24,445 nt of DNA from a virus: positions 1 to 24,445 of IMG/VR virus record IMGVR_UViG_3300027763_000234. One strand, given 5' to 3'. The translations under genes and the position numbers were made by a program. This document shows positions 9,662 to 21,091 of this stretch, in pieces (positions within the stretch are counted from its first letter, which is position 1; every line of letters begins with the position of its first letter). The notes beneath the pieces were generated by a model, which was not told the DNA's origin, made no database searches, and saw only the letters and a list, made by a program, of their open reading frames with translations.

Positions 9662-10769
9662 TATTGTTGGCGGTTCAACCGCAAAGCGTGTGATCAACTG
9701 CCCAGGCTCAGTCGCCTTGGTGCAAAAGATGCCGCCCCAACCAAGTAACAAATACGCAGACGAAGGCACGCTGTTGCACAACGTCATTGCTGAAATCGTG
9801 ATGAGCGATAGAACGCCTGAGAGTTTTCTTGGTACTAAATACGAAGACCAAGTTCTCACGCAAGAACTGATCGACAACAAACTCAAGGTGGCATTGGCTG
9901 CGCTTGATGAGATCGACCCAAACAAAGAGATGCAAATTGAAGCTGAGACTCGCGTCGGCTTTGGTGATCTCTTGCCTGGCGTATTCGGTAGCACTGACCT
10001 TATCGGTCGTATCGGCACCCGCGCTATCGTTCTAGATTGGAAGTTTGGCGACGGCGTTGCTGTGGAAGCAGAAGAGAATGCACAGTTGATGTTCTACGCC
10101 GCTGCGGCCATGCGTACTGAAGGATCAAAGTGGGCGTTCGATGGCGCTACTGAGATCGAATGCATCATCGTGCAACCGCCTGCAATCAAGCGCTGGGTGA
10201 CTACACCGAAACGCATTGCAGAGTTCGAGGCGCAATTGATGCGTGCGGTTAAAGAAGCAGAAGATCCTAACGCGATGATCCGCACAGGCGATCATTGCCG
10301 CTGGTGTACGGCCAAACCTATCTGCCCTCAGATGACCGGCGCCGCTGATCGCGCGTTGCAAGTAGCGATCAAATCGTTAGACGCAAACATGATTAGCAGC
10401 TACTTGGCCAATGCTGATATATTAGAAGATTGGATCAAGGACCTGCGCGCCTTGGCCCATCAAATGTTGGATAGCGGCGCACCTGTGCCAGGGTATAAAC
10501 TGGTGCAAAAGCGCGCTACACGTCAGTGGGTGGACGATAAAAAAGCCGCCGACGCATTGACCGCAATGGGCTTAGAAGCCTACAAAGAACCAGAGGTCCT
10601 ATCGCCTGCACAGGCTGAGAAGGAACTCAAAAAGCGCAAGTTGGCATTGCCTGACGATCTTGTCGTGGCAGTGTCTTCAGGCACAACGCTTGCCCCGGAG
10701 AGTGATCCCCGGTCAGCAGTGTTGCAAATCGGGAAGCAGTTAACTGCAGCCCTTTCTAAAATCAACTAA
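9648..10769 (+). CDS. DUF2800 family RecB/Cas4-like nuclease
   Basis: A 373-residue protein from ATG 9648 (MQHSNIVGGSTAKRVINCPG), which has GAGG upstream; a longer TTG-started version is unlikely. The DUF2800 pattern is clear: INCPGS with Cys18, DEGTLLHNV with His44, GVFGSTDLIG with Asp117, IVLDWKFG with Asp130 and Lys132, then NAQLMFYA with Gln146. These are the PD-(D/E)xK residues of a RecB-type nuclease. GDHCRWCTAKPICP supplies Cys217, Cys220 and Cys226; with Cys18 they could hold an iron-sulfur cluster as in Cas4 and AddB. The likely role is a 5'-3' or single-strand exonuclease in phage recombination or replication. It lies directly upstream of the putative ssDNA-binding protein and DNA polymerase. 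Confidence 0.85.
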   Translation: MQHSNIVGGSTAKRVINCPGSVALVQKMPPQPSNKYADEGTLLHNVIAEIVMSDRTPESFLGTKYEDQVLTQELIDNKLKVALAALDEIDPNKEMQIEAETRVGFGDLLPGVFGSTDLIGRIGTRAIVLDWKFGDGVAVEAEENAQLMFYAAAAMRTEGSKWAFDGATEIECIIVQPPAIKRWVTTPKRIAEFEAQLMRAVKEAEDPNAMIRTGDHCRWCTAKPICPQMTGAADRALQVAIKSLDANMISSYLANADILEDWIKDLRALAHQMLDSGAPVPGYKLVQKRATRQWVDDKKAADALTAMGLEAYKEPEVLSPAQAEKELKKRKLALPDDLVVAVSSGTTLAPESDPRSAVLQIGKQLTAALSKIN

Positions 10770-10779
10770 GGAAAATCAA

Positions 10780-11412
10780 ATGAGTTTAGTAACCTTCTCT
10801 AAAGCAAACCTCCCCGCAGTCAGTTCGTTGGCAACGTCGTTGCGAACAATCCAATCCGAAGTAGGCGCAGCCGGCGTTGTCATCTTAAAGATGGACAAGA
10901 CCGGTCATTGGGTATTCGGTGCGGATCAAACCGAAGTCGAAGACGACTCTCTGTGGGCCATCAATCCCTTTTCTTTTGTCCATGGCTTTATCGCCTGGGG
11001 TGACGGCGAAGTGCTTGGTGAGAAGATGGCCAGCGTAAGCCAGCCGTTACCTGTATTGGATGAGGCCCCACCTCAAGCCAAGAAGGGTTGGGAGTCACAA
11101 GTTGGCATGTCTTTGAAATGCATATCTGGCGACGACAAAGGAATGGAAGCGCGCTACACCACTACTTCGGTAGGCGGTAAGCGCTCAGTGCAAACGCTCG
11201 CAGTGGCATTGGCTGATCAGGTCGACAAAGACCAGACCAAACCAGTGGCCGTCGTGCGTTTGAAGAAAGACCATTACGCGCATAAGTCCTACGGCAAAAT
11301 CTACACGCCTGTGTTTGAGATTGTCGAATGGATTTCTATGGACGCAGATGCCACCGACGTAAAAGTCGAAGCAGAAGCGGAGCAACCTAAGCGTCGTCGT
11401 CGGTCTGCCTGA
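10780..11412 (+). CDS. Replication-module protein, candidate ssDNA-binding role
   Basis: A 210-residue protein starting MSLVTFSKANLPAVSS behind AAGGAAAATCAA. It has a mixed alpha/beta appearance with beta-rich stretches (AGVVILKMDKTGHWVFG near 31-45 and a run of basic/aromatic residues around 150-185). It ends with an acidic linker followed by the basic tail PKRRRRSA. No catalytic motif is visible. The gene is sandwiched between a DUF2800 nuclease and DNA polymerase, and the stop overlaps the polymerase start (TGATG). In related phages this slot often holds a single-strand-binding or recombination mediator protein; that role is inferred from position. The basic rather than acidic C-terminus is unlike classical SSB. 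Confidence 0.75.
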   Translation: MSLVTFSKANLPAVSSLATSLRTIQSEVGAAGVVILKMDKTGHWVFGADQTEVEDDSLWAINPFSFVHGFIAWGDGEVLGEKMASVSQPLPVLDEAPPQAKKGWESQVGMSLKCISGDDKGMEARYTTTSVGGKRSVQTLAVALADQVDKDQTKPVAVVRLKKDHYAHKSYGKIYTPVFEIVEWISMDADATDVKVEAEAEQPKRRRRSA

Positions 11413-13349
11413 TGACTCTTTGGGTTGACTTTGAAACCCGTAGCGCCTGCGACCTAAAAGCCGCAGGCGTTTACAACTACGCACAAGATAGTTCGACTGA
11501 CGTCTTAATGATGTCGTACGCTTTTAACGACGGAGAAGTGCAAACCTGGTTGCCAGACCAACCATTTCCCGCTGCAGTAGCCCAGCACACCGGTTTGATC
11601 TACGCTCACAACGCGGCGTTTGAGCGCTTGATCTTTTGGTATGTGTTAGGGATCAATTTCAAGCTGGAGCAGTTCTACTGCACAGCAACGCAGGCCCGCG
11701 CCAATTGCGCGCCTGGCTCGCTAGAAGACGTTGGCCGCTTTGCTGGCGCGTCTATGAAGAAAGACCATCGCGGCGCGCAGTTGATCCGCTTGCTGTCTAT
11801 CCCGCAGGCCAATGGTTTATTCAGACAAGACGCTACGCTTATGGCTGAGATGATCTCCTATTGTGAGCAAGACGTGCGCGCCATGCGTGCGGTCAGTCTA
11901 GGTATGCGGCCATTGAGCGAAGAAGAATTGGCCGACTACCACGTCAACGAACGCATTAACGATCGCGGCGTCATGGTGGACGTGCCACTGTGTCAAGCTG
12001 CGGTTAAATTCGCAAGCGATGAAATGATCGAGATCGAGCAAATCGTCGACGAAGTAACCGAAGGCGCAATCACTAGCGTGCGCTCACCTAAGATGCGCCA
12101 GTGGGTGATTGATCGTGTAGGCCCGCAGGCGTTAAAGCTGATGGAGTCGCACAAAGACGGCGAGAAGAAATATTCAATTGACAAAACAGTGCGGGCTAAC
12201 TTGCTCGCTATGGAGAATCCAGATGAGATACCGCCCGCTGTTGCCGAGGTTATACAGTGCGCCGATGACCTATGGGCGTCGTCGGTTGCTAAGTTCAGCC
12301 GCCTTGCAGACCTTGCAGACGTCGAAGATCAAAGAGTTAGAGGCGCGTTTGTCTTCTCTGGAGGATCAGCGACAGGCCGCGCTAGTTCATACGGCGCCCA
12401 GGTCCACAACTTCACCCGTAAGTGCGCTGCCGAGCCCGACGCAGTCCGTAATGCTATGGTCAGAGGCCACACAATCATCCCCAAGTACGGCAAACGAGTT
12501 ACCGACGTACTTAAAGGAATGCTTAGACCAGCGCTCATCCCTGCAGCAGGCAAGCAATTGGTTGTGGCCGACTGGTCAGCAATCGAAGCAAGGGTAAACC
12601 CGTGGCTGTCTAACTGCTTTGCCGGCGAATGCAAGCTAGAAATCTTTGCCAAAGGCGAGGACGTTTACAAGGTCAACGCGGCCGCGACGTTTGGCGTGGC
12701 AGTCGATGCGGTAGACGATCGTCAACGTCAAATCGGCAAGGTGCAAGAGTTGGCCTGCGGCTTTGCAGGCGGCATTGGCGCCTTCGCAGCCATGGGCCGT
12801 GTCTACGGCGTGCATCTGCCTGAGTCCGACGCCAAGCGCATGGTGGACGCATGGCGCAGGGCCAATGCTTGGTCGGTGCCTTACTGGCAAAAGCTAGAGG
12901 AATCCTACACGCGCGCCATGCGAAACAAAGGCCATGAGTTCCCCGTCGGCCGCGTAACGTACATGTTTGACGGCCAGCACCTTTGGTACATGTTGCCCTC
13001 CGGCCGTGTGCTTTGCTACCCGTACGCAAGACTAGAACAAGACGGGATAAGCTATGCCAAGGCGGCATGGAAACCGGCAGCAGACGCAAAAGAATGGCCG
13101 CGTGCAAGACTTTGGAAAGGATTAGCGTGCGAGAATATCACCCAGGCCGTAGCCAATGATTTGTTGCGTCACGCCCTGCGCCAATTGGATGATGTAGTGC
13201 TACATGTCCACGACGAAATCGTGCTAGAAAGTACTGATCCAGTAGAAGCTGCCGCGAGGCTAGAGAAGGTAATGTGTACGCCGCCTGCATGGGCCAAGGG
13301 TTTGCCCCTTGCCGCCGGTGTGTCGGTTATGACAAGATACGGAAAGTAA
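11412..13349 (+). CDS. Family A DNA polymerase with 3'-5' exonuclease
   Basis: A 645-residue replicative polymerase. The exonuclease domain shows Exo I VDFET (Asp6, Glu8), Exo II AHNAAFE (~65-71) and Exo III YCEQD (Asp154). The polymerase domain shows the template/primer motif ATGRASSYGAQVHNFTR (~320-336), motif A VADWSAIEARV (Asp387, Glu392), motif B around RQIGKVQELACGF (Arg439, Lys443), and motif C VHDE (His600, Asp601). Motif B carries Phe at 451 where many family A enzymes have Tyr. There is no 5' nuclease domain, as usual for phage enzymes. It should copy the phage genome with proofreading. Its ATG overlaps the preceding stop, and a strong hairpin begins at its own stop codon. Confidence 0.95.
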   Translation: MTLWVDFETRSACDLKAAGVYNYAQDSSTDVLMMSYAFNDGEVQTWLPDQPFPAAVAQHTGLIYAHNAAFERLIFWYVLGINFKLEQFYCTATQARANCAPGSLEDVGRFAGASMKKDHRGAQLIRLLSIPQANGLFRQDATLMAEMISYCEQDVRAMRAVSLGMRPLSEEELADYHVNERINDRGVMVDVPLCQAAVKFASDEMIEIEQIVDEVTEGAITSVRSPKMRQWVIDRVGPQALKLMESHKDGEKKYSIDKTVRANLLAMENPDEIPPAVAEVIQCADDLWASSVAKFSRLADLADVEDQRVRGAFVFSGGSATGRASSYGAQVHNFTRKCAAEPDAVRNAMVRGHTIIPKYGKRVTDVLKGMLRPALIPAAGKQLVVADWSAIEARVNPWLSNCFAGECKLEIFAKGEDVYKVNAAATFGVAVDAVDDRQRQIGKVQELACGFAGGIGAFAAMGRVYGVHLPESDAKRMVDAWRRANAWSVPYWQKLEESYTRAMRNKGHEFPVGRVTYMFDGQHLWYMLPSGRVLCYPYARLEQDGISYAKAAWKPAADAKEWPRARLWKGLACENITQAVANDLLRHALRQLDDVVLHVHDEIVLESTDPVEAAARLEKVMCTPPAWAKGLPLAAGVSVMTRYGK

Positions 13350-13374
13350 AAAGCCGCCTGGCCGGGCGGCTTTT
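13349..13374 (+). terminator. Hairpin terminator after the DNA polymerase gene
   Basis: A perfect 10-bp stem, AAAAGCCGCC (13349-13358) with GGCGGCTTTT (13365-13374), and a 6-base loop TGGCCG. The T run on the 3' arm gives an intrinsic terminator; the A run on the 5' arm makes it active in the other direction as well. It starts at the last base of the polymerase stop and lies 20 bases before the primase-helicase start, so it could lower transcription into that gene. Confidence 0.8.
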
Positions 13375-13393
13375 CTGTCAACAAGGAGATGAC

Positions 13394-15661
13394 GTGGAGT
13401 TTTTAGATTATATCTGCAACTTAGCCCCAGAGGGCGAAACACCTTTAATAGTACGACAAAAACCACAGTTGAGAAACGGCGAAGTGCAGTTGCACGCTGA
13501 CGGCGCTATTGTCGCAACGTGGCCGTCGTATCTGCCGACCAAGCAAAAACCCAAAGAAGGTCAGGCGTGGTACGTGAACACCGGCAGCTTTATCGTTGAC
13601 CGATTCAAAGACGGCAAAGTCAGTGCGTCCAAGGACAATATTGAGTTTGTGCTTTGCCTGATGTTGGACGACATTGGGACCAAGTCCAAGGAGCCGCCAT
13701 TAGCGCCAACGTGGAAGATCGAATCGTCGCCTGGTAATTTTCAGTGGGGCTACGCATTCAGTGAGCAACCATCCAAGGCCGCGTTTGTTGCTGCGGTCGA
13801 CGCAATCGCAGAGGCCGGCTACACCGACCCAGGCGCGCGTAATCCGGTCCGTAACTTTCGACTGCCCGGCTCTGTAAACCTGAAACCTACGGCAGGCGGC
13901 TTCGTTAGCCGGTTGGCTGAATTCAATCCAGAGCGCGAATACACACTACAACAAATCTGCGATACTCTAGGTGTTATCCCTAAACCGGAGCAAGGGGACA
14001 CTTTACGCCCGATTAAGATGGCCGACGATGGCAACGACGACGTTTTACGTTGGCTATCGGATAACAGTTTGCTATTGTCAAAACCTAATGGGATAGGTTG
14101 GGCTGGCGTCATTTGTCCTAACAGCGCGCAACACAGCGACGGCAACCCTGAAGGTCGCTACATGCCGGCAACCCGTGCATATTGCTGCTACCACGGCCAC
14201 TGCCAAGAATTAAATTCCCACACGTTCTTAGAATGGGTGGCTGACAACGGCGGCCCTAAACATACGCCAGGGCTGCGCGAGGAACTCTTAACCCAAGCTA
14301 TGGATCAGGCGTTATCTAAACTCACGCCAACCGACATGTTCAAAGACGACGCTGCCGCGATCGTGGCTGAAACTGAACGCAAGGAACTAGGCCGGGTAGA
14401 AAAGTCTGAATGGTGGGACCGGTTTGCATACATTCAGGAAGACGACGCGTATTTTGATATGCAAGACCGGCGCGAACTCGCGCGTGGCACCTTCAACGCA
14501 TTGTTTAGGCATATCGGCTGCAAGTCGGTCCACAACGGCCGCAAGATAGAGGCGTCTTACTCCTTTGATGAGAACCGGCAAACCAAAGGCGCCAAGGCGC
14601 TAGTTGGCATCACCTACGCCGCAGGGTCATCGGTGTTAGTCGTGCGCGACGGGCAAACCTACGGCAACCGCTGGCGTGACGCTAGACCTAAACCCGTGCC
14701 AGGCGACGTCACCCCATGGCTGCGGCATATCGAGCGCATGGTGCCTGAAGCATTCGAGCGTGAGCACTTACTTAACGCGCTCGCGCATAAAGTCCAATTC
14801 CCAACGCACAAAATAAACCACGCGATCTTAATGGGTGGCAATCATGGCTCCGGCAAAGACACATTATTCGCCCCGTTCTTTTGGGCCATCGGAGGCGAGG
14901 CTAAGCATAATTGCTCGCTAGTCAAAAACGAAGACCTAAACTCGCAGTGGGGTTACGCGCTTGAATGCGAAGTTATGGAAATAGCCGAGTTACGCCAAGC
15001 TGAAGCTAAGGACCGGCGCGCGCTTGAGAATACCCTAAAGCCAATCATCGCCGCGCCGCCTGAATTACTGACAATCAACCGCAAGGGCCTTCACCCTTAC
15101 TACGCACTCAACCGCGTTTTTGTTGTCGCGTTCTCAAACGAACGCGTGGCAATCTCACTGCCAAGCGAAGATCGCCGGTGGTTTGTATTGTGGGCGGAGG
15201 CGTCAAAGCTAAACGAAGCGCAGGCAACGGCTTTGTGGAACTGGTACCAAAGGCGCGGCGGCTTTGCTGCAGTGGCTGAGTACTTACATAAACGCGACGT
15301 AAGCGCTTGGAATCCATCGGCGCCGCCGCCAATGACTGAGGCCAAGGCCATAATGATCGAGCACGGCATGAGCACGTCAGAGGCTTTTTTAGTCGATCTT
15401 ATTCGCAGGCGCTCCGGTGAATTCTCGCGCGGCGTGGTCGGCGCGCCCTTCCATGGCCTATGCGACCGGCTGCAAGGCCAGGCGCCAACCGGCGCCAAGA
15501 TAGTCCAAGGCGCGTTATTGCACGCGCTAAAGGAGGCCGGCTGGACCGATATGGGCCGCATTAAGTCGCGCGAGTATGACAACCGCAAGCATGTGTTTTG
15601 CGCGCCTGACATGGCCGGCATGTCAAAATCAGACCTTCGCCGCATGGTCGAGACAACATAA
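13394..15661 (+). CDS. PrimPol-SF3 helicase (RepB-like primase plus DUF5906-like helicase)
   Basis: GTG at 13394, five bases after GGAG, gives 755 residues; the upstream extension overlaps the polymerase gene and is unlikely. The N-terminal third matches RepB-type/archaeo-eukaryotic primase: LMLDDIG (Asp92, Asp93), SSPGNFQWGYAF (~111-122) and RNFRLPGSVNLKP (~153-165). A middle segment has a possible zinc site (Cys241, His247, Cys264/265, His267, Cys270). The C-terminal helicase has Walker A GGNHGSGKDT (481-490), Walker B-like VMEIAEL (~527-533), sensor VVAFSNE (~577-583) and arginine finger SEDRRWF (~591-597). This fits NrS-1-polymerase-like helicases. It probably primes and unwinds the phage origin. 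A hairpin terminator follows the stop at once. Confidence 0.88.
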   Translation: MEFLDYICNLAPEGETPLIVRQKPQLRNGEVQLHADGAIVATWPSYLPTKQKPKEGQAWYVNTGSFIVDRFKDGKVSASKDNIEFVLCLMLDDIGTKSKEPPLAPTWKIESSPGNFQWGYAFSEQPSKAAFVAAVDAIAEAGYTDPGARNPVRNFRLPGSVNLKPTAGGFVSRLAEFNPEREYTLQQICDTLGVIPKPEQGDTLRPIKMADDGNDDVLRWLSDNSLLLSKPNGIGWAGVICPNSAQHSDGNPEGRYMPATRAYCCYHGHCQELNSHTFLEWVADNGGPKHTPGLREELLTQAMDQALSKLTPTDMFKDDAAAIVAETERKELGRVEKSEWWDRFAYIQEDDAYFDMQDRRELARGTFNALFRHIGCKSVHNGRKIEASYSFDENRQTKGAKALVGITYAAGSSVLVVRDGQTYGNRWRDARPKPVPGDVTPWLRHIERMVPEAFEREHLLNALAHKVQFPTHKINHAILMGGNHGSGKDTLFAPFFWAIGGEAKHNCSLVKNEDLNSQWGYALECEVMEIAELRQAEAKDRRALENTLKPIIAAPPELLTINRKGLHPYYALNRVFVVAFSNERVAISLPSEDRRWFVLWAEASKLNEAQATALWNWYQRRGGFAAVAEYLHKRDVSAWNPSAPPPMTEAKAIMIEHGMSTSEAFLVDLIRRRSGEFSRGVVGAPFHGLCDRLQGQAPTGAKIVQGALLHALKEAGWTDMGRIKSREYDNRKHVFCAPDMAGMSKSDLRRMVETT

Positions 15662-15684: not shown

Positions 15685-15756
15685 TTACTTTTTACGCCTG
15701 CCTAGAATCAACTGCAGGACATAAGCTGCTATCGCGTACCACATGCCTGCCCCCAT
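15685..15756 (-). CDS. 23-aa probable membrane microprotein
   Basis: A 24-codon frame starting MGAGMWYAIAAYVLQLILG and ending in basic residues RRKK, with TAA at 15687-15685, directly before the terminator. It overlaps the preceding gene; an alternative ATG lies at 15744. One hydrophobic helix with a positive C-terminal tail is the pattern of a small inner-membrane protein. The purine-rich GGGGGC before the second ATG could act as a ribosome-binding site. It is short, so support is limited. Confidence 0.45.
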   Translation of the reverse strand: MGAGMWYAIAAYVLQLILGRRKK

Positions 15757-15968
15757 GCGTTGACTAGCGCGGCCGCGTCATATTCCGGCAGCTTTTCGGC
15801 CACAGTAAACAGGCCAGCGCCGCGCCGTATCCGGCCCCAGGCGTCGTGCCGGTTTTGGTTTACAAGCTGGCCGCGCTTAACTGCAGCATATACCTGGTCG
15901 CGCGTATAGCCCTCAGTTTCGCATTCGTGCATGGTGCGTGGTATCGCACAGTAGTCGGTCAACGTCAT
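15729..15968 (-). CDS. 79-aa possible winged-helix-like DNA-binding protein
   Basis: Starts at ATG 15968 (MTLTDYCAIPRTMHECETEG), which overlaps the upstream stop (ATGA at 15968-15965); a longer frame from 16058 runs back into the previous gene. TRDQVYAAVKRGQLVNQN (~22-39) looks like a recognition helix, followed by GRIRRGAGLFTV, reminiscent of a wing. This suggests a small HTH/winged-helix regulator or DNA-binding protein. The C-terminus (DAAALVNAWGQACGTR) is helical. Family assignment is not certain. Confidence 0.65.
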   Translation of the reverse strand: MTLTDYCAIPRTMHECETEGYTRDQVYAAVKRGQLVNQNRHDAWGRIRRGAGLFTVAEKLPEYDAAALVNAWGQACGTR

Positions 15969-16198
15969 AAGCCGGCCCCCTTCATTGCTGCGGCTTTGCA
16001 CTGCTCCACCTGGTCGTCGGTTAAACCCTGCGCGAATTCTTCGGCCATGTCCGCGCATTGCTGCGCGGCTTTCGCATTCGGCGCCGTTAGTCCTAGCACC
16101 AAGGCGCGAATTACTAATTCAGTCGGCGAGGGTTTAGGCGCCGGCGGTGGCGCGAATGGTTTAAGCGCATCCTGCAAAATTTTGGGTATATTATTCAT
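15965..16198 (-). CDS. 77-aa hypothetical protein with Pro-rich linker
   Basis: ATG 16198 gives MNNIPKILQDALKPF, a Pro-rich stretch (PPPAPKPSPTE, ~17-27), and a helical C-terminal two thirds with ALVLGLTAPNAKAAQQ and EEFAQGLTDDQVEQCKAA. The start overlaps the upstream stop by 8 bases and the stop overlaps the next ATG. The purely helical C-terminal domain and Pro linker suggest a protein-protein adaptor; no family is recognised. Possible starts further upstream lie inside the preceding gene. Confidence 0.65.
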   Translation of the reverse strand: MNNIPKILQDALKPFAPPPAPKPSPTELVIRALVLGLTAPNAKAAQQCADMAEEFAQGLTDDQVEQCKAAAMKGAGL

Positions 16199-17419: not shown

Positions 17420-18079
17420 CTAGGCGGCCAGCTTGATATCTATCACGCGCTTTCGCGTGCCATGGGCAGGGAAACCGACAATGGCCGCGCGTTGTCGCTG
17501 GCATAGCTGGCAGCTTGCACACGTCACGTCGTCGCGTTGTGTGGCCGGGCAGATCACGACGGCACGGCCGGCCGGCGTCGTTGTGTTAGTCGTTGTTGTG
17601 CTTGGTAGCACGACGACGACCGGACCGGCCGCGTGATCGGCCAGCTTGTCGGCGTCGGCCAGGTCGTTAGCGCTTAGGTTAACTGTAAAGCCCCATGCAT
17701 TCGCATGGCGTATCCAATTAATGCTTGCGGCGTCGCGGTGGTGCGAATAGGTAAAGCCGCGCCGGCCGGTATTGGCCGCGACCAATTGGCCTAATTTGGC
17801 GGCGTCGATTGTCGCGCCGGCTTTCGGCAGGTCCCCGGCTTGATTGTGCCGCCATAGCTGGCCGTCGGGCAGCTGCGCGACCTGGTCGGTGAACATCGAC
17901 CAGTCCGTGCCGCGCGTGCCGGCGCCGACGGCGCGCCAGTGTAGCGCGAGCGGGCCGCTGGCCGCGTAGCATTCTTTTTTTAGCTTGCAATCATCGGGGC
18001 AGCTTTCGGGTTCAGTAGTGCTTACGGGTATTGGACCGGTTTTAGCGTTAGCGCTTTTTAGGGTTAAATGTGCTTGCAT
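17420..18079 (-). CDS. Cys-rich phage protein, DUF7227-like
   Basis: A 219-residue protein. Residues ~14-40 contain PIPVSTTEPESCPDDCK and then LKKECYAASG, with Cys27, Cys31 and Cys37; a second set lies in ICPAT (Cys177) and TCASCQLC (Cys187, Cys190, Cys193), followed by GFPAHG (~202-207). Between them are QLPDGQLWRHNQAGDLP (~69-85) and GFTVNLSAND (~130-139). This order is typical of a phage family annotated as DUF7227. The CxxxCx5C group recalls iron-sulfur or radical-SAM-like proteins such as phage Gp37/Gp68, but no SAM-binding motif is evident. Zinc binding is an alternative. A Thr-rich run (TTTTNTTTP, ~161-169) looks like a low-complexity insertion. It follows the 99-aa gene by one base. 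Confidence 0.75.
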   Translation of the reverse strand: MQAHLTLKSANAKTGPIPVSTTEPESCPDDCKLKKECYAASGPLALHWRAVGAGTRGTDWSMFTDQVAQLPDGQLWRHNQAGDLPKAGATIDAAKLGQLVAANTGRRGFTYSHHRDAASINWIRHANAWGFTVNLSANDLADADKLADHAAGPVVVVLPSTTTTNTTTPAGRAVVICPATQRDDVTCASCQLCQRQRAAIVGFPAHGTRKRVIDIKLAA

Positions 18080-18080
18080 A

Positions 18081-18380
18081 TTAGGCGCCTTTGACGTTGT
18101 CGGCCAGCGTGCGGATCGCGCGCAGCGTGTTTAAGTGTTCATCGTTATAGTTGTCGGCGTTTTTGTAGTCGCCGGCGTCATAGCTGCGCATAATGTCGCG
18201 TTGTGAAAATAGGCCGCAGTGTTTAACGTCGTCGCGCGATAAGCCGCCGGCTTGAATTAATCCCTCTATAAAGCGGTCGCGGTCGGTGAACATAATGTCG
18301 CCGTTGTCTAATAGGGCTGCAGCGATCCGCTGGCCGTGCTGGCCGTACATGCGGCCGGTGTTAAATGTTAGAGTTTCCAT
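18081..18380 (-). CDS. 99-aa hypothetical phage protein
   Basis: Starts at ATG 18380 (METLTFNTGRMYGQHGQRI) with CGAAAGTAAA two bases upstream. The N-terminus reads as beta strands (LTFNTGRMY...QRIAAALLDNGDIMFTDRDR), followed by helices ending TLRAIRTLADNVKGA. The F-N-T-G-R-x-Y-G-Q-x-G opening recurs in small phage proteins of unknown role. The TAA stop lies one base before the next ATG, so translation of the DUF7227-like gene is probably coupled. No active-site motif is seen. Confidence 0.7.
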   Translation of the reverse strand: METLTFNTGRMYGQHGQRIAAALLDNGDIMFTDRDRFIEGLIQAGGLSRDDVKHCGLFSQRDIMRSYDAGDYKNADNYNDEHLNTLRAIRTLADNVKGA

Positions 18381-18382
18381 GG

Positions 18383-18392
18383 TTTACTTTCG
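18383..18392 (-). promoter_or_regulatory. CGAAAGTAAA leader element, copy 2
   Basis: The same 10-base element, two bases upstream of the ATG at 18380. Confidence 0.6.
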
Positions 18393-18410
18393 GATAGGGT
18401 TTATTTTCGC

Positions 18411-18431
18411 GGCCAGGCTGCGCGCCTGGCC
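18411..18431 (-). other. Intergenic stem-loop
   Basis: GGCCAGGC (18411-18418), loop TGCGC, GCCTGGCC (18424-18431): a perfect 8-bp stem in the gap between two minus-strand genes. On the minus strand it is followed by GCGAAAATAAACCC rather than a T run, so it looks more like an RNA-stability or processing hairpin than a full terminator. Confidence 0.55.
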
Positions 18432-18439
18432 GGTCCGGT

Positions 18440-18631
18440 TTAGCTAACTATAAATTCAGGCGAGAATGCCGCGCCGCTGCGGATCGCATAGGCGCGTAAT
18501 TCGCTGGCCGTCGCTGCCTTACGTGTCGAGCGGATCATGGCCGACAATGCGCGCGCGACATAATGGATATCGAGCCCTGCGGCATGGTGCGCGAGCACTA
18601 GGTTAAATTCGCGTTGTTCTGATTTTGTCAT
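18440..18631 (-). CDS. 63-aa hypothetical phage protein, first gene of the leftward cluster
   Basis: Starts at ATG 18631 (MTKSEQREFNLVLAHHAAG) with CGAAAGTAAA five bases upstream. The protein is helical with a basic middle (ARALSAMIRSTRKAATASEL, ~27-46). The layout M-T-K-x-E-x-x-E-(F/M)...ARxLSAxIR is shared by short phage proteins with no assigned role. It is the first gene behind a near-consensus promoter and thus probably made early and strongly. Confidence 0.7.
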   Translation of the reverse strand: MTKSEQREFNLVLAHHAAGLDIHYVARALSAMIRSTRKAATASELRAYAIRSGAAFSPEFIVS

Positions 18632-18636
18632 GGTCG

Positions 18637-18646
18637 TTTACTTTCG
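18637..18646 (-). promoter_or_regulatory. CGAAAGTAAA leader element, copy 3
   Basis: The same 10-base element, five bases upstream of the ATG at 18631, within the 5' leader made from the promoter at 18687-18714. Confidence 0.6.
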
Positions 18647-18686
18647 TTTAGGTTAGTTACTGAGGTTTCCGGCGCCCGGTGTAATT

Positions 18687-18714
18687 ATTGTAAGGTTTTT
18701 CTTTACATTGTCAA
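18687..18714 (-). promoter_or_regulatory. Near-consensus sigma70 promoter for the leftward cluster
   Basis: Minus-strand TTGACA (18714-18709), 16-base spacer, TACAAT (18692-18687): perfect -35 and a -10 with one mismatch. Transcription should start near 18680, giving a ~50-base leader before the ATG at 18631. It is the best promoter match in the window. Confidence 0.8.
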
Positions 18715-18747
18715 GCATTATTTTACTAGGTGTTTTCCCTAATGGTT

Positions 18748-18806
18748 TGTGGGTCATGCGTGGGTCGCGTGTGGACTATGTTTTTTGACGACATGACCCA
18801 CACGCG
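18748..18806. repeat. Inverted GTGGGTCAT repeat group
   Basis: TGTGGGTCATG (18748-18758) and its exact inverse CATGACCCACA (18792-18802) form an 11-bp inverted repeat. A second inverted pair, CGCGTGTGG (18766-18774) with CCACACGCG (18798-18806), is nested with it, and GTGGGTC recurs 11 bases on from the first copy. The arms use the same unit as the tandem copies further on. Confidence 0.75.
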
Positions 18807-18837
18807 GCGCCAGTAAACATGCGGGTTATCGGCATTT

Positions 18838-18855
18838 GTGGGCCATGTGGGTAAT
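18838..18855 (+). repeat. Two tandem 9-bp units (GTGGGCCAT-GTGGGTAAT)
   Basis: Direct tandem units at 18838-18846 and 18847-18855, immediately left of the AT-rich block. They are in the same register as the reverse complement of the groups at 18961 and 19358. Confidence 0.75.
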
Positions 18856-18875
18856 GTTTTTATTTTATCCATGAA

Positions 18876-18897
18876 ATATATATATATATATATATAT
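18876..18897. repeat. (AT)11 dinucleotide tract
   Basis: Twenty-two bases of uninterrupted alternating A and T inside a wider AT-rich block flanked by 9-bp repeat groups. It would melt easily or extrude a cruciform, as expected of a DNA-unwinding element. Confidence 0.85.
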
Positions 18898-18960
18898 TAT
18901 TTTAAGAATATATGGCCGCGTAAATATTCCGTGAGAGGCCAGCGATTTAAAACGCGTGGC

Positions 18961-18982
18961 CACATGGCCCACATGACCCACA
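18961..18982 (-). repeat. Tandem 9-bp units right of the AT block
   Basis: CACATGGCC (18961-18969), CACATGACC (18970-18978), then a partial CACA. Read on the minus strand these are the GTGGGYCAT units, pointing opposite to the group at 18838, so the AT block lies between oppositely oriented arrays. Confidence 0.75.
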
Positions 18983-19000
18983 AAATTGTAGAATGTGGCC

Positions 19001-19207
19001 ATGGTCCGACCCTGCAAACCAGATACGTTATTTTTTAAGCGGCGCCTGCAGCCGGCGCAGCGGTCCATTATTAGGGCTGCCGGTGCCGGTGATTTATCGC
19101 GTGGGTTTAATGAATTGCTGGCCATATATGCCCACCTGCACGCGATCGGTTACCGGCCAGGCATGCGGCCGCACAATATCGGGTTAGTTCCTAATGATGA
19201 CGAATAA
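19001..19207 (+). CDS. 68-aa probable ribbon-helix-helix DNA-binding protein
   Basis: From ATG 19001 the product is MVRPCKPDTLFFKRRLQPAQ and 48 more residues. The pattern is a short basic strand (TLFFKRRLQ, ~9-17), a helix (PAQRSIIRAAG), a turn GDLSRGF (~30-36), and a second helix (NELLAIYAHLHAIG, ~37-50). This fits the Arc/MetJ/CopG ribbon-helix-helix fold, where the strand reads DNA and the turn packs a dimer. It lies between 9-bp repeat arrays, and its start sits in a related GTGGCCATGG sequence. Such proteins usually bind tandem short repeats near their own genes. The Shine-Dalgarno is weak, so the gene itself is probable rather than certain. Confidence 0.5.
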   Translation: MVRPCKPDTLFFKRRLQPAQRSIIRAAGAGDLSRGFNELLAIYAHLHAIGYRPGMRPHNIGLVPNDDE

Positions 19208-19357
19208 GAACCATTCGCATTACACTTTATGCACAATGGCACCTGGCCGGCCACTGCCGGCCCGATAGCTGGCCGGTCCATGGCCGTGTAGCTAGTAGCT
19301 GCCGGCGCCTGCCTGCCGGCCGCCTGGCCGGTTTCCCGCCGGTCCGAATTCGCTGGC

Positions 19358-19384
19358 CACATGGCCCACATGGCCCACATGGCG
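19358..19384 (-). repeat. Three tandem CACATGGCC units
   Basis: Units at 19358-19366, 19367-19375 and 19376-19384 (the last ending GCG). On the minus strand these are GTGGGCCAT-type repeats, in the same orientation as the 18961 group. They are the most regular array in the window. Confidence 0.8.
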
Positions 19385-19447
19385 CGCCTGGCCGCTGGCC
19401 GCCTGCCGCTGGCCGTGCGGCGCCTGGCCGCCTGCCGTGCGGAATAG

Positions 19448-19478
19448 TTGACACGGGGGGAGGGGTATTGGCTATGAT
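19448..19478 (+). promoter_or_regulatory. Candidate promoter for the terminase/portal operon
   Basis: TTGACA (19448-19453) followed after 19 bases by TATGAT (19473-19478). The -35 is perfect, but the spacing is 2 bases longer than ideal and the spacer is G-rich, so strength may depend on a regulator. The distance to the small terminase ATG is about 60 bases. Confidence 0.5.
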
Positions 19479-19539
19479 GAAACTTTTGATGGAGCCACCT
19501 ACCCACATAAAAAGGAAAATGGGGTTATAGTACGCAGCT

Positions 19540-19839
19540 ATGAGTTATAGGCCACCAAAAGTACTGCCAAAGACTGACTATCAAAAAGTTAAAGAACTTA
19601 AAGAGTTGATGTTGAAGTCCGGCGGCAAGCAGGTAGCGCAAAAAGTCATCGACATTGCGTTAAATGATGAGCATCCCGGACAAATGGCAGCGCTAAAGAT
19701 GTGTATGGATCGGACGCTGCCGGTCAGCATGTTTGAGAAAGACAAAGCGCAACGCGGCGCAGTGACGATTAATATCACTGGAATTGGTGCTACCACCATG
19801 GTAGAAGATATAACGGACATCGAACTAAAAGATGAGTGA
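19540..19839 (+). CDS. Probable small terminase subunit
   Basis: A 99-residue protein (MSYRPPKVLPKTDYQKVKEL at its start) placed directly upstream of the large terminase, with an 8-base overlap. The N-terminal basic and helical part and the phrase GGKQVAQKVIDIALNDEHPGQMAALKMC (~29-56, shown as key run VAQKVIDIALNDEHPGQMAA) are typical of short TerS-like proteins that recognise the packaging site. The C-terminus is beta-rich and acidic (TDIELKDE). Annotation rests mainly on position and size. The Shine-Dalgarno is weak; the transcript leader contains AAAAAGGAAAATG 26 bases upstream, which opens only a 3-codon frame. Confidence 0.7.
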   Translation: MSYRPPKVLPKTDYQKVKELKELMLKSGGKQVAQKVIDIALNDEHPGQMAALKMCMDRTLPVSMFEKDKAQRGAVTINITGIGATTMVEDITDIELKDE

Positions 19840-21091
19840 ACTTAACTTTAGCCTACTGCCTTGGCAGCAAGAGGTGTTCAAGGACGAAACGCGGTTCAAA
19901 GTTATAGCTGCCGGCAGGCGGTGTGGCAAGTCCAGATTGGCCGCGACTACTTTGTTAATAGAGGCGCTGCGTTGTCCGGTTGGCAGCGCGGTGTTGTACG
20001 TCGCCCCGACGAATGGCCAGGCGCGGCAGATTATTTGGGACGTCTTGATGGAACTTGGGCGGGAGGTGATCCAGTCTAGTCATATTAATAACCAGAACAT
20101 TATGACGATCAACGGCGCCAGTATTTATGTCAGAGGCGCAGACCGGCCGGACACCTTACGGGGTGTTAGCTTAACTTACGCAGTTCTTGACGAGGTGGCT
20201 GACATTAAGCCCGAAGCGTGGGAGCAGGTCATAAGAGCCTCGCTTTCGGACAAAAAAGGCAAAGCCATGTTTATTGGCACGCCCAAGGGAAGAAATTGGT
20301 TCTACGATCTGTACAAGCTAGGTCAAGAGGAGTCAGACCAGGATTGGAAGTCTTGGCACTTCACTACAAAAGACAATCCCCTAATAGACCCAACTGAGAT
20401 TGAGTCAGCCAAAAAAACCTTATCCACCTTTGCTTTTAAGCAGGAATACATGGCTAGTTTTACTAATGCTGGTAGCAATGTGTTTAAGGAAGAATGGATT
20501 AAGTATGGGGAAGAACCTCAGTACGGCAGTTATTACTTAGCGATTGACTTAGCAGGATTTGAGGAAGTTGCCAAACAAGCGGCTAATTCTAAGAAGAGGC
20601 TAGACCAGACTGCTATTGCTGTGGTCAAGGTAACTGAGGACGGCAAATGGTTTGTAAAAGAAATTGTTTATGGTAGGTGGGACATCCGTGAGACTGCGGC
20701 AACCATCCTGATGAAGATGCGAGATTACAGACCTTTGGCAGTAGGTATCGAGCGAGGTGCGTTAAAAAATGCAGTTTTGCCGTATCTTTCTGACCTTATG
20801 CGTAAAAATAATGTATATTCGCACATAGTAGACTTAACGCATGGCAACAGGAAAAAGGCTGACAGAATTATCTGGAGCCTCCAAGGTCGATTTGAGCATG
20901 GGCGTATTGTGCTGAACTCTGAGGAGGATTGGGATGAATTTAAAGATCAACTTCTACTTTTCCCAGCCATTGGAGTGCATGATGACTTGCCAGATGCTTT
21001 GTCATATATTGACCAGTTAGCCGTGACTTCTTACTTTGAGGATGTTGAAGAAGATGAGTGGGAGCCAGTTGACATAATTAGTGGGGTTTAA
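19832..21091 (+). CDS. terL: Terminase large subunit (packaging ATPase/nuclease)
   Basis: A 419-residue terminase. The ATPase domain shows Walker A AAGRRCGKS (26-34), Walker B YAVLDE (Asp120, Glu121) and the coupling motif FIGTPKG (147-153). The nuclease domain has YYLAIDLAG (Asp239), VGIERGAL (Glu307) and HDDLPDAL (Asp384, Asp388), the acidic triad of an RNase H-like fold. It drives ATP-dependent genome packaging through the portal and cuts the concatemer. The start overlaps TerS. Codon use changes within the gene: the first ~350 bases are rich in GGC/GGCC like the middle of the genome, the rest uses more GGT/GGA and almost lacks GGCC. This suggests a recombination joint inside the coding sequence. 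Confidence 0.95.
   Translation: MSELNFSLLPWQQEVFKDETRFKVIAAGRRCGKSRLAATTLLIEALRCPVGSAVLYVAPTNGQARQIIWDVLMELGREVIQSSHINNQNIMTINGASIYVRGADRPDTLRGVSLTYAVLDEVADIKPEAWEQVIRASLSDKKGKAMFIGTPKGRNWFYDLYKLGQEESDQDWKSWHFTTKDNPLIDPTEIESAKKTLSTFAFKQEYMASFTNAGSNVFKEEWIKYGEEPQYGSYYLAIDLAGFEEVAKQAANSKKRLDQTAIAVVKVTEDGKWFVKEIVYGRWDIRETAATILMKMRDYRPLAVGIERGALKNAVLPYLSDLMRKNNVYSHIVDLTHGNRKKADRIIWSLQGRFEHGRIVLNSEEDWDEFKDQLLLFPAIGVHDDLPDALSYIDQLAVTSYFEDVEEDEWEPVDIISGV

Follow-up and report, generated by a model that had tools for sequence, protein, structure and literature searches.

A clustered 9-bp repeat very probably marks the replication start in a large group of freshwater phages

The window analysed here, the whole 24,445-base IMG/VR virus record IMGVR_UViG_3300027763_000234, contains several groups of a 9-bp unit, GTGGGYCAT, gathered between leftward accessory genes and the terminase operon, and the question raised by this locus is what these short repeats do and which protein reads them. 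Comparison of related sequences indicates that the repeats very probably mark the replication start in a large group of freshwater phages; they are probably iterons of a theta-type replication origin, to which the primase-helicase encoded by the phage would bind. Eight exact copies are present in the contig, seven of which lie between 18749 and 19378, with one stray copy at 10953. Positions 18640-19539 hold these seven copies, whereas 5000 simulations with a first-order Markov model of that region average 0.036 copies and yield at most 2. Every group of units listed in an earlier note on this DNA was found, in 9-base register (arrays A to D in Table 1), and the hub is placed as described there, with the accessory open reading frames (ORFs) ending at 18631 and a terminase-like ORF starting at 19540. 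The description of the hub as non-coding has to be amended, since a conserved 70-residue ORF separates array C from array D.

When viral contigs were scanned for exact tandem pairs of the unit, at least 119 stretches emerged, and nearly all of those among the matches listed have genes or hub DNA in common with the window. Wherever a near-complete record has arrays, its units are gathered in a single cluster of up to 13 copies per 500 bp, while a reversed control pattern gives 0-2, so that the repeat is neither absent from relatives nor scattered through their genomes. A conserved gene order surrounds it: SNF2-like, nuclease, Cas4-like, ORF 10780, PolA, primase-helicase, leftward accessory genes, array, terminase. 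Linkage was measured in 61 relatives of the primase chosen independently of the repeat, each with at least 3.5 kb of downstream sequence. A cluster of GTGGGYMAT was located 1.4-3.7 kb downstream of the primase in 39 of them, with 172 units in total against 29 for reversed controls. The cluster was found in 0/53 relatives of the large terminase TerL with enough upstream sequence, 49 of which have no replication gene of the window type and four a Cas4-like match only. The array is thus linked to the replication module rather than to the terminase. The right-hand terminase and portal set is either of the window type (TerL of 419 residues) or comprises an unrelated TerL of about 507 residues with a P22-type portal. 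In G017-G020, TerL is about 89% identical to that of the window and the replication modules are wholly different, a clean module exchange at the hub. Primase relatives also occur in contigs of metagenome-assembled genomes labelled Rhodoferax and betaproteobacteria; these may be phage contigs that were binned there by chance. Freshwater Burkholderiales are a first guess at the hosts. Against named phages, the hub DNA gave a single 50-bp match.

The spelling of the unit varies among relatives, and columns of eleven proteins were scored by the share of this variation that they explain (adjusted R2). For unit position 3, which is G or A, the highest values belong to columns 769, 764, and 790 of the primase-helicase (0.67, 0.66, and 0.62; n=99), followed by columns 709, 782, and 783, all six located in its C-terminal domain. 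For PolA the figure is 0.18 (n=72), and for ORF 10780, the Cas4-like protein, SNF2, the nuclease, and most accessory proteins it is at most 0.35. Position 5 is also best explained by the primase (column 714, 0.47), and position 7 displays a diffuse association across all proteins, in line with shared descent. Where residue 764 is Lys, His, or Arg, position 3 is G in 80 of 84 loci, and it is a letter other than G in 29 of the 51 other loci (Fisher 1e-11). When 17 independent pairs were taken on a tree built from the remainder of the primase, 10.7 were concordant, 0.0 discordant, and 6.3 uninformative. A check nearer to a real test of the 764 rule is provided by 34 loci outside the discovery set, several of them close kin of discovery loci, in which G accompanies Lys, His, or Arg in 12/12 cases and is lacking in 17 of the 22 others. 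Furthermore, Asn at 769 occurs with T at position 4 in 7/10 loci. Because the spelling of the unit changes together with one spot in the enzyme, these data suggest that the primase-helicase reads the repeats.

Library matches of the primase-helicase comprise Pfam RepB_primase (weak) and DUF5906, and DNA primase in PHROG. An SF3/D5-type helicase domain is present (DUF5906; a PDB profile match to the NrS-1 polymerase, 6k9c/6k9e, E 1e-11; Foldseek match to NrS-1 CTR, E 6e-6), as is an AEP primase domain, matched by Foldseek to the S-2L AEP 6zp9 (E 2e-6) and to RepB' 3h25. The Foldseek search on the full-length protein used a model with a predicted local distance difference test score (pLDDT) of 71, to which SaPI5 primase-helicase structures were a weak match. 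An AlphaFold2 model built from 34 aligned C-termini (mean pLDDT 83.7) has helices spanning 89-97 and 108-117 along with strands at 121-126 and 135-139, a predicted winged-helix arrangement in which residues 764 and 769, model positions 127 and 132, fall within the wing. This predicted fold and the covariation agree with a C-terminal domain that would bind double-stranded DNA and set specificity. The called ORF overlaps the end of polA (13274-13394); since the alignment with most relatives begins only around residue 40, the true start is probably near 13394, giving about 755 residues.

The same layout recurs with other spellings. Primase relatives without GTGGGYMAT have an array of a different unit at the corresponding site, such as GTGGACAAT, GTAGGCAAT, and GTAAGCAAT, and a few have units of about 8 bp; in the L309-L313 hubs the period is about 8 rather than 9 (GTAGTCAT, GGTCACAT). 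In 112 non-redundant hubs, some of which had been found via the repeat, exact 7-mers recur at a distance of 9 in 922 cases against 244 for the runner-up distance, and 87 of these hubs have at least three such recurrences. A further scan by primase alignment provided 65 hubs, about a dozen of whose contigs were re-fetched from the earlier set, and the period of 9 was again dominant (825 vs 179 for the runner-up), with the additional spellings GTGTGCCAT, GTTGGCTAT, GTAGTCAAT, and GTCGGCTAT. In GenBank, the circular MW202483 (Podoviridae sp. ctNMl277; L390) encodes a primase 51% identical to that of the window and has a corresponding hub with GTTGGTAGT units, AGTCGC, and an AT-rich stretch. Besides these iterons it has many GTTTACATAAAC-like palindromes at about 10200-10700, upstream of the terminase region, and its ‘DnaA HTH’ protein displays no similarity to the window ORF 15729-16058. 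In all, more than 130 loci with at least 8 unit spellings form a natural data set.

In the hubs the iterons are followed by TTTTNARTCGCTGG at a fixed spacing and then by AT-rich DNA. The motif A[AG]TCG[CG] lies within 28 bp after a unit in 107/135 hubs, compared with 19/135 for the reversed motif. Across 88 non-redundant contexts, the unit-to-element spacing is most often 16 bp (37 contexts), then 8 bp (14) and 24 bp (5); the element is flanked by TTTT before and CTGG after, and in 76 contexts the units and the primase are on opposite strands. A+T content is 60% over the 100 bp after the element and 48% before the array. The A+T peak of the hub is high for its own genome in 16 records (combined p 2e-6), about half of which hold the genome maximum there, and in the window it is the highest 100 bp of the contig. 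The sequence TTTTCCCTA was also considered as a general hub element and dropped, being present in 11/135 loci only. As described above, tandem short repeats are found in one place, beside AT-rich DNA and about 3 kb from the gene of the presumed initiator, the layout expected of an origin.

A possible course of initiation can be outlined from these features. During the first step, the C-terminal winged helix of the PrimPol-SF3 primase-helicase would bind the 9-bp units of the tandem array and read position 3 with its wing, as covariation and the predicted fold would have it; the domain concerned (about residues 640-795) would bind double-stranded tandem GTGGGTCAT. During the second step, suggested by the anatomy of the hub, several subunits would gather on the units, which run head to tail, with TTTTNARTCGCTGG setting their phase, and the adjoining AT-rich stretch would melt. 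During the third step, the SF3 helicase ring would load, the AEP domain would prime, and the phage PolA would extend with assistance from nearby replication genes, to judge from their families. The large freshwater phage group would thereby gain a concrete predicted origin and initiator. Moreover, the natural data set described above would allow the specificity of an origin-binding primase-helicase to be traced to individual residues and bases, which opens initiator-origin recognition and its evolution to direct tests. A more tentative idea is that spellings diversify with the initiator wing, which would keep related phages that share a host from firing or titrating each other's origins; we consider this possible, though rather doubtful. 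If true, it would imply replication-level immunity or incompatibility groups in phages and a partly readable one-residue, one-base code (764 with position 3; Asn at 769 with T at position 4).

The working principle is already known; what is new is this group of phages with its 9-bp unit and phased RTCGC element, together with the natural covariation of wing position with iteron base. No description of these was found in the literature searched. In its manner of initiation the proposed origin may be likened to SaPI Rep with SaPI ori and to SCCmec Cch2 (AAGTG iterons). Those are staphylococcal islands with the origin directly downstream of the helicase gene and, for Cch2, 5-nt iterons, whereas podovirus-like phages with 9-bp units plus a phased RTCGC element are concerned here. 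By description, the alpha protein of satellite phage P4 is also comparable, joining primase and SF3 helicase functions to origin binding on iteron-type repeats; P4 differs in being a satellite with two cis regions (ori and crr) and a different repeat. Plasmid Rep initiators are not known to be primase-helicases, unlike the initiator proposed here. The general layout is nevertheless that of iteron plasmids, which combine a Rep protein, tandem iterons, and an AT-rich element (PMC4980987). The polymerase of NrS-1, a deep-sea vent phage, is a related protein of AEP plus helicase that needs an 8-nt recognition sequence; its site is a priming template sequence with two copies in the genome, as opposed to the tandem array here (PMC7102993). 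C-terminal winged helices of mobile-element AEP proteins have been suggested as origin recognisers (PMC5862659).

Several points weigh against an iteron origin read by the primase-helicase. The earlier note had raised the prospect of a GC-skew minimum at the hub, and none was found there, either in the window or in circular MW202483. Some 3 kb separate the arrays from the initiator gene, unlike in SaPI. A Foldseek search with the C-terminal domain alone gave weak matches (best E 0.02), many of the top ones being winged-helix proteins. Regarding covariation, the median p of 0.001 in the pair test is descriptive only, because column 764 was picked by scanning, and in the non-discovery loci alone, with the kinship mentioned above, the tree test yielded 6 pairs (3.8 vs 0) and is underpowered. 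Residue 764 is not a full code either, as Ala there occurs with G, A, or T. The DnaA-box-like TTATCCACA favours an origin, with 16 occurrences in 326 kb of hubs against 0 in 1.08 Mb elsewhere, but about half of these matches may be iteron variants (GTGGATAAT), and several come from one lineage. Finally, with array A next to a strong promoter and array D 5' of the terminase genes, transcription may be an additional role of some arrays.

This last point bears on the best-surviving alternative, in which the units are operators, a regulator of the ribbon-helix-helix (RHH) or another type switching the leftward accessory and rightward late operons at a divergent promoter region. The positions of arrays A and D, and the occurrence of arrays in both orientations between divergent operons, would suit it. 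However, among the neighbours scored, no regulator-like protein was seen to covary with the units: o157, o159, o161, and DUF7227 reach at most 0.35 at position 3 against 0.67 for the primase wing, and the 0.57 of o184 comes from just 18 loci. Neither the phased RTCGC element nor the AT-rich stretch would be expected in an operator array, and on balance we regard this explanation as unlikely. As candidates for an RHH regulator, the adjacent short ORFs 18440-18631 and 18081-18380 found no support, having no family match in Pfam/PHROG-type library scans, and an adjacent short ORF was detected in only 22/112 loci. The earlier note had offered iterons, partition-like sites, or RHH operators, with the PrimPol as a possible binder; linkage to the replication module and covariation with the C-terminal winged helix favour the initiator and iterons, and no support emerged for RHH. 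At arrays A and D, near promoters, the initiator may also regulate transcription, and autoregulation by it is possible.

A DnaA-dependent origin, in which the units would be degenerate host DnaA boxes, appears decidedly improbable. TGTGGGTAA is one base from TGTGGATAA, and true TTATCCACA boxes are confined to hubs, in 15/135 loci. Yet the unit letters track the phage primase, which host DnaA would not explain, and for the window host boxes as units were rejected, as it has zero TTATCCACA and one TTATGCACA; DnaA may nonetheless assist at the origin. Least credible of all is the idea that the small terminase subunit binds the array as a packaging site (cos or pac). An array directly 5' of terminase genes is in a frequent location of cos sites, but the units are missing from all 53 informative TerL relatives with another replication module, occur also beside the unrelated TerL and portal family, and do not travel with the terminase genes; this reading was therefore rejected on linkage.

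Table 1. Features of the window discussed in the text (positions in the 24,445-base record; L numbers denote relatives)
Feature	Position	Strand	Remarks
PrimPol-SF3 primase-helicase ORF	13274..15661	+	795 aa as called; proposed origin-binding initiator
Predicted winged helix of primase-helicase	15449..15601	+	residues 726-776; wing residues 764 (15563-15565) and 769 (15578-15580)
Leftward accessory genes, left flank of hub	17420..18631	-	DUF7227 17420-18079; 18081-18380; 18440-18631
Sigma-70-like promoter of accessory operon, leftward	18687..18714	-	TTGACA-16-TACAAT, 11/12 consensus; consensus match only; adjoins array A
Array A	18749..18801		18749-18757 (+), 18793-18801 (-); degenerate unit at 18760
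Array B	18838..18855	+	tandem pair GTGGGCCAT GTGGGTAAT; units at 18838 and 18847, second reads GTGGGTAAT
AT-rich stretch, candidate unwinding element	18852..18951		76% A+T; (TA)11 at 18876-18897
Conserved phased element	18939..18963	-	reads GTGGCCACGCGTTTTA AATCGCTGG on the minus strand; immediately follows array C
Array C	18964..18981	-	tandem pair (18964, 18973); degenerate third unit 18955-18963
Small ORF within hub	18995..19207	+	70 aa; homologues at corresponding site in L194, L245-249, L313, L315, others
Array D	19361..19378	-	tandem pair (19361, 19370) and partial neighbours; upstream of terminase operon; kept in L017, L194, L205
Right flank of hub	19540..21091	+	small terminase-like ORF 19540-19839; TerL 19832-21091; portal beyond

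Among the neighbouring features, the sequence of the leftward promoter is kept in L194, L245, and L247. The 70-residue ORF has the pattern RPCKxDT...AGAGDL...GF...IYAHLH...GYRP, and a similar protein is encoded in L015, a TerL relative without the repeat. At 19453-19464, a short distance 5' of the gene for the small terminase, there is a G-run (GGGGGGAGGGG type); it is also found upstream of TerS in L012, L015, L020, L251, L275, L309, and L313, even with a differing hub. In some relatives the G-run is followed by a C-rich counterpart, possibly representing a packaging site or a structure.
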